DNA of 64,000 nt from Microbacterium luteolum (GTDB taxonomy: Bacteria > Actinomycetota > Actinomycetes > Actinomycetales > Microbacteriaceae). The DNA is taken from positions 310,001-374,000 of the forward strand of contig NZ_BAAAUN010000001.1 in assembly GCF_039533965.1 (NCBI RefSeq), written 5' to 3'. The notes under the pieces were generated by a model. That model did no database searches. It was not told the origin of the DNA and saw only the letters and a program-made list of their open reading frames with translations. How positions within the stretch are numbered: the stretch's first letter is position 1; each line of letters opens with the position of its first letter. The position numbers and the translations under genes are program-made. This document shows, piece after piece, positions 58,244 to 59,985 of the stretch.

Positions 58244-58948
58244 GTGTGTGAGACGACCTCCAGCGCCCTCCCGCGTGCCGTGATCTCCCGCTCGGCACTC
58301 GCCGCCGCGGCATCCGCTGCCGTCCGCGCGGGCGGACGAACGGCCGACCTCCGGCGGGATGCGTGGGGGCACGGGGTGCTCTCCGTCGCGCAGGCGGTCA
58401 TCGCCGCCGGTGCGGATCGAGTGCTCGTCGATTCCCAGGGCGAGGTCGACGCGCTGCACCTCGAGGGGATCGACGCCGTCACTTCAGGAGTCGCGGACAT
58501 CGACCCGTCCCTGCTCTACGGCCTCCCCGACGCTGCCGGGGCCCTGACGCTGCAGCCCGTGATGCGCCTCACCGGTCGGGTCCTGTCCACGAAGCGCCTC
58601 CGCGCGGGAGACGCCGTGTCCTACGGCTACACGTATCGCGCGCCGGCGGACACCACTGTGGCGCTCGTGACCGGCGGGTACGCGCAGGGGATCGTCCGAG
58701 CCCTCGGGAATCAGGCGCACGTCGACGTCGAGGGAGCCGCGCGACCGATCGTCGGCCGCGTCGCGATGGACGTGTGCGTGGTCGACCTGGAAGGACGAGA
58801 CGTCGCCTCCGGAACAGAGGTCACCTACTTCGGCGGAACCGGATCGGCCGGATCGGGTCTGAGCCGATGGGCCGCCATCACCGCGATGTCCGTCGCCGAG
58901 CTTGTCACCGTCGCCGGCGCCCACGCGGCACGGGGGTGGGAGGCATGA
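58244..58948 (+). CDS. alanine racemase-like protein with truncated barrel and intact catalytic Tyr
   Basis: A 234-residue protein. Residues 1-75 match the first strands of the Alr barrel, but about 150 residues of the barrel middle are absent; residues 84-94 match the barrel end (DIDPSLLYGLP) and 103-200 match the C-terminal domain. The PLP-lysine motif KANAYGHG reads RRDAWGHG (Arg37), and the barrel-end Arg is Ile86. The catalytic Tyr is kept (Tyr127 in VSYGYTY), as are GGYAQG and GRVAMD (Met175-Asp176). It cannot bind PLP alone and overlaps the next gene by ATGA; the two are likely subunits of one enzyme. Confidence 0.8.
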   Translation: MCETTSSALPRAVISRSALAAAASAAVRAGGRTADLRRDAWGHGVLSVAQAVIAAGADRVLVDSQGEVDALHLEGIDAVTSGVADIDPSLLYGLPDAAGALTLQPVMRLTGRVLSTKRLRAGDAVSYGYTYRAPADTTVALVTGGYAQGIVRALGNQAHVDVEGAARPIVGRVAMDVCVVDLEGRDVASGTEVTYFGGTGSAGSGLSRWAAITAMSVAELVTVAGAHAARGWEA

Positions 58949-59985
58949 GCCGTCCGGAGCTGCGGATCAGCAGCGAGACGTTCCGCGCGAACATCGAAGC
59001 CGTCCGTGCCCGCATCGAGCCGTCGACGCTCATGCTGGTGCTGAAGGACGATGCCTACGGGCACGGGTTGCGGTGGGCCGTCGAGACCGCCGTGCAGACC
59101 GGCATCCGGTGGTTCGGCAGCTACGACATCCGTAGCGGCCTCGAGGTGCGTCGCATCGCCGGTCGTGATGCGCGGATCTTCGCGTGGGCCACGTCGACGG
59201 ACGACGAGATCGACGAGGCGCTGGCACACGACATCGATCTCGGCGTCGGCACCCGGGAATACCTGAGTCGGGTCATCGCTCGCGCCGCGGTCCTCGGTGC
59301 ACCAGCCCGAGTGCACCTCAAGATCGACACCGGACTGCACCGCAACGGCGTGCTCCCGGAGGAGTGGCCCGAGGCGCTCGCGGAAGCGCGAGCGGCGGAG
59401 CGGCTCGGGCAGCTGGAGCTGGTCGGCGTGTGGAGCCACATCGCCGAGGCGAGCGACGCCGAGGATGACGAGGCTCAGACCGCGTTCCTCGACGCCGTGC
59501 GCATCGCCGGCGAGTCCGGGCCTGCGCCGGCACTGCTGCACCTGACGGCGTCGGCCGCGTCGTGGTGGCGTCCGGAACTGCGCGGCAGCGTGTCGCGCAT
59601 CGGCGCGTTCTGCTACGGCATCCGCTCCGCCGACGGGCCGGAGCTCGAGGGCGTCCGACCCGTCGCCTCACTGAGCGCGCTCGTCGAGGAGATCGTCGAC
59701 GGTGCCGCGGTGATCGCGATCGGGAGCTTCGACGGTCTGCCGTCGACGCTCTCCGGGATGCCCGTCGGCACGCCAGGCGGCACGCGCACCCTCGCCGAGA
59801 TCGGGCAGACCACCTCGGTCGTCGAGGGCTGGCCGGGGGCGCAGGTCGGAGACGAGGTCATGCTGTTCGGTCCGGGCGAATCCGGTGAGGTCAGCGCGAC
59901 GACCCTCGCGGAGCGGATCGACAGCGTGGGTGAAGAGATCCTCACCCGGTTGACCCCGCGCGTGCGTCGTATCGTCCGGGAATGA
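58945..59985 (+). CDS. alanine racemase-like protein with PLP lysine but lacking the catalytic Tyr segment
   Basis: A 346-residue protein. The barrel is complete: LVLKDDAYGHG (Lys34), HLKIDTGLHRNG (Arg133), and SVSRIGAFCYG (Arg218). In the C-terminal domain the segment with the catalytic Tyr (VSYG in Alr) is deleted; GSFDG at 260-264 replaces GYADG, and the MD motif is lost, while the end (GDEVMLFG, then VGEEILTRL and RVRR) remains. The start is ATG 58945, overlapping the previous stop. On its own it should not racemise alanine. It could be a dimer partner of the protein before it. Confidence 0.8.
   Translation: MSRPELRISSETFRANIEAVRARIEPSTLMLVLKDDAYGHGLRWAVETAVQTGIRWFGSYDIRSGLEVRRIAGRDARIFAWATSTDDEIDEALAHDIDLGVGTREYLSRVIARAAVLGAPARVHLKIDTGLHRNGVLPEEWPEALAEARAAERLGQLELVGVWSHIAEASDAEDDEAQTAFLDAVRIAGESGPAPALLHLTASAASWWRPELRGSVSRIGAFCYGIRSADGPELEGVRPVASLSALVEEIVDGAAVIAIGSFDGLPSTLSGMPVGTPGGTRTLAEIGQTTSVVEGWPGAQVGDEVMLFGPGESGEVSATTLAERIDSVGEEILTRLTPRVRRIVRE

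Follow-up and report, generated by a model that had tools for sequence, protein, structure and literature searches.

Two adjacent genes of Microbacterium luteolum with complementary alanine racemase residues: a putative heterodimeric diamino acid racemase of the cell wall

In the window (the whole 64,000-nucleotide stretch of DNA that was analysed), two adjacent genes, here termed P1 and P2, encode proteins of the alanine racemase (Alr) fold whose complementary losses, judged from their sequences, go beyond chance. The reading preferred in this study, with a probability of roughly 0.7, is that both products form an obligate Alr-fold heterodimer with one live active site, which would racemise a diamino acid, probably L-ornithine to D-ornithine, for a B2-type cell wall. 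From the partition of residues, the co-occurrence and fusions of the genes, the predicted fold of P1, a conserved acidic residue and the genomic context, we infer a complex, its activity and its substrate. P1 and P2 would assemble 1:1, with PLP held on Lys34 of P2 and Glu330 of the same chain facing the amine of the substrate side chain; Tyr127 of P1 would reach over the interface as the second base, and Tyr146 and Met175 of P1 would contact the substrate carboxylate. The other site, composed of the vestigial barrel of P1 and the decayed C domain of P2, would be dead.

Distribution of active-site residues between P1 and P2

P1 (58244..58948, forward strand) starts with GTG and encodes 234 residues comprising a vestigial barrel and the Alr C-terminal domain, and P2 (58945..59985, forward strand) encodes 346 residues with a full barrel and a C domain devoid of the catalytic-tyrosine segment; they are the predicted tyrosine-donor and PLP/lysine subunits, respectively. 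Both open reading frames and their ATGA overlap (58945..58948, forward strand), described in an earlier note on this DNA, were confirmed when the coordinates were checked, and the shared bases suggest translational coupling. P1 and P2 lie side by side in 40/40 pair-positive loci fetched from the genus; at 38 of these an in-frame P2 start shares four bases with the P1 stop, and at the remaining two it shares one. Fission or a frameshift of a single gene in the window was ruled out, since the two genes stand together at all of these loci and P2 begins at its own start codon. A pair of pseudogenes was likewise ruled out on the grounds that the active-site residues are invariant.

Residues are numbered as in the Geobacillus alanine racemase, after alignment of P1 and P2 to the full-length alr of their own genome; active-site positions other than the nine named next follow the usual numbering of that enzyme. 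The numbering of Lys39, Tyr43, Lys129, Arg136, Ser204, Arg219, Tyr265', Arg290' and Tyr354 is given in the available part of PMC3485190. P1 matches the Pfam Ala_racemase_C profile nearly completely (positions 1-124 of 127), and its N domain is a sub-threshold remnant (profile positions 30-69 of 220). P2 matches essentially the whole N domain (1-219 of 220), its Ala_racemase_C match beginning at profile position 35, past the catalytic-tyrosine segment. In the alignment, P1 has Arg37 (codon 58352..58354; this and the following codons are on the forward strand) at the position of the PLP lysine, Lys39, and retains the catalytic tyrosine, Tyr265', as Tyr127 (58622..58624), Tyr284' as Tyr146, Arg290' as Arg152, the substrate carboxylate contact Met312' as Met175 (58766..58768) and Asp313' as Asp176, in addition to the GGYAQG motif. 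P2 carries the PLP lysine as Lys34 (59044..59046), Tyr43 as Tyr38, Lys129 as Lys126, Arg136 as Arg133 (59341..59343), His166 as His165 and Arg219, which contacts the PLP pyridine nitrogen, as Arg218 (59596..59598); it has neither Tyr265 nor Met-Asp, and Glu330 (59932..59934) stands at the position of Tyr354, a residue on the side of the substrate side chain. Pfam matches and alignment agree with the division read in the earlier note, in which P1 kept the tyrosine, GGYAQG and Met-Asp with an arginine for the PLP lysine and about 150 residues of the barrel gone, and P2 kept the barrel with Lys34, Arg133 and Arg218 and lacked the tyrosine segment and Met-Asp; Glu330 was absent from that description.

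Taken over both genes, the two domains typical of Alr (fold type III), an N-terminal barrel and a C-terminal beta domain, are present. The PLP lysine is found in P2 and the catalytic tyrosine in P1, two chains that would have to bring them together in one site. Alanine racemase in the sense of EC 5.1.1.1 has both bases in one homodimerising chain and Tyr354; P1 lacks Lys39, P2 lacks Tyr265, and the residue at 354 in the window is Glu330. Scores against the NCBIfam alr model TIGR00492 are 102.4 bits for P1 and 120.9 bits for P2, both below the cut-off of 168 bits.

Close relatives show the same partition. In protein searches at the genus level, Arg at position 39 together with Tyr265, Tyr284, Arg290, Met312 and Asp313 was found in all of the best 120 of 1164 P1 matches, and Lys39, Tyr43, Lys129, Arg136, His166, Ser204, Arg219, Glu354 and no Tyr265 in all of the best 120 of 3326 P2 matches. 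Arg37 is not invariant within the genus, being replaced by Tyr or Ala in 2 of 13 members compared. A family-wide P2 search (best 120 of 3447 matches, reduced to 116 P2 by the exclusion of four long fusions) returned proteins with the barrel residues kept and no Tyr265 in 116/116, position 354 being Asp in 115 and Glu in one. The pair described in the earlier note from a single stretch of DNA was also found in other Microbacteriaceae: a wider test of 40 loci, picked for high P2 scores among 299 genomes of 85 genera, yielded 31 P1-like proteins (26 genera) and 33 P2-like proteins (27 genera), all outside Microbacterium, with one P2-like protein in a fusion and another at a contig end that separates it from its partner. 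Tyr265, Arg290 and Met312 are present in 31/31 of the P1-like proteins, position 284 is Tyr or Phe and position 313 Asp or Asn; Lys never occurs at position 39, which is mostly Arg, but also Ala, Thr, Ser, His, Gly or Asp, with two gaps. The P2-like proteins have the seven barrel residues in 33/33, no Tyr265, never Met312, and Asp or Glu at 354. Six full-length proteins with an acid at 354 and seven full-length proteins with Tyr354 belong to the same wider set.

Between them, the partners of the pairs from other genera retain Lys39, Lys129, Arg136, His166, Arg219, Tyr265 and Met312; Tyr354 alone is lost from both. Such retention of the catalytic set makes a non-catalytic pair, either a PLP-binding regulator or a structural complex, very improbable, even though each protein is degenerate by itself. 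A heterodimeric Alr-fold PLP enzyme with other chemistry, for instance decarboxylation or epimerisation of a precursor-bound residue, would be compatible with the altered substrate pocket and with the fact that fold type III also includes decarboxylases; we regard it as quite unlikely, as the two proteins together retain both racemisation bases, Arg136/Lys129 and the carboxylate contact Met312.

Co-occurrence, fusions and origin of the pair

Presence of the genes was scored by gaps in E-value (P1-negative genomes had no match better than 6e-22 and P2-negative genomes none better than 1e-41); doubtful cases were opened, and adjacency was verified at the fetched loci. Among 198 genomes of the genus, 167 have both genes, 30 have neither and one (G150, 72% complete) has P1 at a contig end, meaning that, contig ends apart, neither gene was found alone in these genomes. 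Frequent loss of one gene without the other, named in the earlier note as an outcome speaking against a two-component enzyme, was therefore not observed. Both genes are present but frameshifted in G090 (68% complete), and neither was found in G045 (81% complete).

In two genomes of the genus, G089 and G167, P1 and P2 form a single open reading frame of 541 and 550 residues, respectively, with P1 trimmed to the C domain. These genomes (loci L264 and L265) are 2.3-2.4 Mb in size. Beyond the genus, further natural P1-P2 fusions were found (P0243, P0244, P0245, P0320, whose record is labelled as a Pseudoclavibacter sp. MAG, and L164); the predicted structure of the fusion P0245 reached a pTM of only 0.67. 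Moreover, P1 and P2 distances are correlated beyond ParE distances (partial r 0.64; 0/2000 permutations; 38 genomes). Since the two genes co-occur and have been fused repeatedly, we consider a complementary, obligate P1-P2 heterodimer with a single live site very likely.

It has also been considered that P1 is a relic and that P2 pairs with the canonical Alr, borrowing its tyrosine. Canonical Alr could in principle provide Tyr265', and four genera carry a full-length paralog with an acid at 354 beside canonical alr, but the invariance of the P1 active-site residues, the lack of solitary genes and the recurrent fusions leave this explanation barely plausible.

On a ParE tree of 60 rows, the simplest account of the distribution of the pair requires four gain or loss changes, of which at least two are indicated by starred branches. 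An order-level scan of 248 genomes, 230 of them outside the family, gave no match in 9, one in most others and two or three in 30. Microbacterium-like sequence was also encountered in three records titled Stenotrophomonas maltophilia P13 (L171), Streptomyces sp. AC495_CC817 (P0092) and Aneurinibacillus sp. BA2021 (P0213), which are probably mislabelled or contaminated assemblies.

Several sister genera retain what may be earlier stages of the pair. Tandem full-length alr genes are found in genera g12, g35, g5 and g32 (L149, L153, L166-L169), away from the sigA-parE locus; the first copy has Tyr354, and the second combines both bases with Asp or Glu at 354. The first gene of L131 (g58) and that of L146 (g9) have kept their full length, yet Lys39 and other barrel residues have been lost. 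In a barrel tree, the Tyr354 enzymes group separately (SH-aLRT 97), the full-length proteins with Glu fall with the Glu P2s and those with Asp with the Asp P2s, the exceptions being three Asp P2s (g54, g9, g68) on the Glu side, and in a C-domain tree the P1s form two sets with supports near 80-90. The word "split", used in the earlier note, does not hold up well: the tandem paralogs and the full-length but degenerate P1-like intermediates fit duplication with complementary decay better than the splitting of one gene. The simplest account would thus be duplication of an alr-like gene, a substrate change in one copy and subsequent complementary decay into a heterodimer. Tree topology, with many supports of 80-93, suggests that the pair may have originated twice, in a D and an E lineage.

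Position 354, wall type and the candidate substrate

In Alr, Tyr354 and Tyr265' constitute a narrow gate that helps to limit the enzyme to alanine, and in lysine racemase the residue at this position is Thr391, which contacts the side-chain amine of D-Lys in a docked model, according to the relevant passages of PMC3485190. Replacement of Thr391 by Tyr alone left 53% of the lysine activity (same passages of PMC3485190), indicating that position 354 is not the sole determinant of the substrate. All P2 examined have Glu or Asp here, and a carboxylate at 354 would suit a cationic side chain.

Two further full-length alr genes were found in the genome of the window when it was checked for them, as the earlier note had proposed; the pair as the sole alanine racemase of the cell was accordingly ruled out. 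One of these genes (L002; G000:C1:2228285-2229328) has His at the Lys129 and Tyr354 positions and may itself have a changed substrate. Nine named pair-negative genomes, searched whole, contain matches to full-length alr only. These findings bear on a heterodimeric racemase that would act on alanine or some other small neutral amino acid as a back-up or regulated alr. Apart from position 354, its catalytic residues would be those of Alr, and alanine racemases make up the majority of the listed relatives with solved structures; with the Tyr354 gate replaced by an acid in every P2 examined and full-length alr present both elsewhere in the same genome and in the pair-negative genomes, this explanation is unlikely. 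Of the options raised in the earlier note, a related enzyme with a new substrate has therefore gained ground and alanine racemase has lost it: the acid at 354, the additional alr genes and the genomic surroundings all favour a cationic diamino acid as substrate.

Pair presence was compared with wall type across named loci (the best 80 of at least 532). The pair is absent from M. hominis, M. lacticum, M. flavum and M. paulum of cluster II, a cluster with L-Lys walls, and also from M. saccharophilum, M. thalli, M. memoriense and M. pullorum; a look-up of wall type for the pair-negative M. paulum, M. saccharophilum, M. thalli, M. memoriense and M. pullorum found none. The wall diamino acid is a diagnostic trait in taxonomy, and Microbacterium walls contain D-ornithine, L-lysine or 2,4-diaminobutyric acid (DAB), as stated in the available sections of PMC10757982, which also assign an L-Lys wall to M. 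arborescens, a species without the pair at the locus, the only region viewed in this case. M. testaceum, M. hydrothermale, M. proteolyticum, M. galbinum and M. oxydans, for which the same sections report D-Orn walls, in M. oxydans by way of its cluster V (PMC10757982), carry the pair, and it also occurs in other named species. Conversely, the whole genome of M. radiodurans has no P2 and its wall is reported as D-Orn, and the pair is present in M. enclense NIO-1002 (whole genome) and strain ZYFD042, the wall of NIO-1002 being reported as L-Lys; both species are named there as deviating from their clusters (PMC10757982). Overall, six named species agree with the reported wall type and these two disagree, and the correlation rests on few independent events because pair presence within the genus is largely clade-wise.

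P2s named as belonging to Leifsonia, Diaminobutyricibacter, Diaminobutyricimonas and Schumannella, genera whose DAB walls are known or implied by their names, have Asp at 354. On this evidence, the pair is probably a diamino acid racemase serving the wall. L-ornithine to D-ornithine, supplying the interpeptide bridge of B2-type peptidoglycan, would be the most likely reaction here, and D-Orn as the product in this strain is put forward with reasonable, slightly lower confidence; D-DAB would perhaps be formed in the Leifsonia-like genera.

Gene neighbourhood and relationship to known racemases

Gene order in the genus is PAC2-sigA-F420L-like-(ATP-grasp)-P1-P2-DUF7455-parE, and 20 fetched pair-negative loci have the same frame minus the pair. 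Within the genus, 10 of 40 pair-positive loci also contain murT; in other genera this holds for 22 of 33 loci with the pair or a fusion, and gatD accompanies murT in all but one case. Of these 22 loci, 9 have murT on the strand of the pair and 13 on the opposite one, so that murT-gatD and the pair often do not constitute one operon. No MurT match above 23.5 bits was obtained in the genome of the window. The gene upstream of P1 (57372..58067, forward strand), an F420-ligase-like gene with a weak CofE-family match, sits where many relatives have murT-gatD, and it is possible that it replaces them functionally. Pair-negative Microbacterium mostly have one or two ATP-grasp genes of the sugar-transfer type (PF14397) at the site, for example L071:10182-11204 and L075:5810-7867, with none in L232, and the genome of the window carries a 93% identical relative of the PF14397 gene elsewhere (G000:C1:2577420-2578433).

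The GatD encoded at the pair locus (L093:5447-6199 and 30 more in L094-L165) has Gly, Ala or Ser in place of Cys94 in 31/31, the register having been fixed by aligning one member to S. aureus GatD, in which C94S or C94G abolishes lipid II amidation according to the available part of PMC6113224. The accompanying MurT has 0-3 cysteines and hence no four-cysteine zinc ribbon, a feature described there for some MurT only (PMC6113224). As Cys94 is lost and such substitutions abolish amidation, the MurT-GatD of the pair locus probably does not amidate with glutamine. It is an attractive guess that it couples an amino acid to D-Glu at the alpha-carboxyl group, from which B-type bridges begin. More tentatively, and doubtfully on balance, a family-wide scheme may be envisaged in which the two-part racemase makes the D-diamino acid of B-type walls, with position 354 as a code (Glu for D-Orn in Microbacterium, Asp for DAB), and, in many genera, a neighbouring MurT-GatD that lacks the glutaminase nucleophile attaches an amino acid rather than ammonia to the D-Glu alpha-carboxyl, both together providing the missing start of the cross-bridge pathway; the orientation of murT-gatD opposite to the pair at so many loci lowers the probability of this scheme.

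Among known systems, Alr itself (PF01168 and PF00842; Streptomyces lavendulae 1vfh, M. tuberculosis 1xfc/6scz), which is a drug target and a textbook example of a homodimer, has the fold and shared-site logic in common with the pair, and its PLP lysine, Arg136, Arg219, Tyr265' and Met312' are all present across P1 and P2. The pair differs from it in consisting of two genes with half a site each, in having Glu or Asp for Tyr354 and in the one dead site that is expected. VanT, the serine racemase of vancomycin resistance, also has the Alr fold and makes another cell-wall D-amino acid, as proposed for the pair, but is a single chain with a membrane domain, and the NCBIfam VanT models match P1 and P2 far below their cut-offs. 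Clostridial ornithine racemase is a PLP racemase for ornithine encoded by a single gene and catabolic in function. Lyr and Bar/BsrV (4dza, 4dyj, 7agz) share the Alr fold, their structures being 24-28% identical to the predicted model of P1; Lyr and Bar favour lysine and differ from Alr in the residue at 354 (PMC3485190). Unlike the pair, they are homodimers with Thr (Lyr) or Ala (Bar) and no acid at this position. PddB of Streptoalloteichus likewise inverts DAB in an actinobacterium, but in the excerpts available of PMC8225329 it is a cofactor-independent, weak homolog of DapF acting in another pathway. No description of the pair or of a wall racemase for D-Orn or D-DAB was found in titles and abstracts of the open-access literature, most subscription papers lying outside this scope.

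The pair thus offers a case in which one active site is apparently divided between two unequal paralogs, and sister genera still display stages of this evolution. Should the proposed substrate be right, an enzyme would have been named for the D-Orn, and perhaps the D-DAB, of Microbacteriaceae peptidoglycan, and the pathway would become directly testable.
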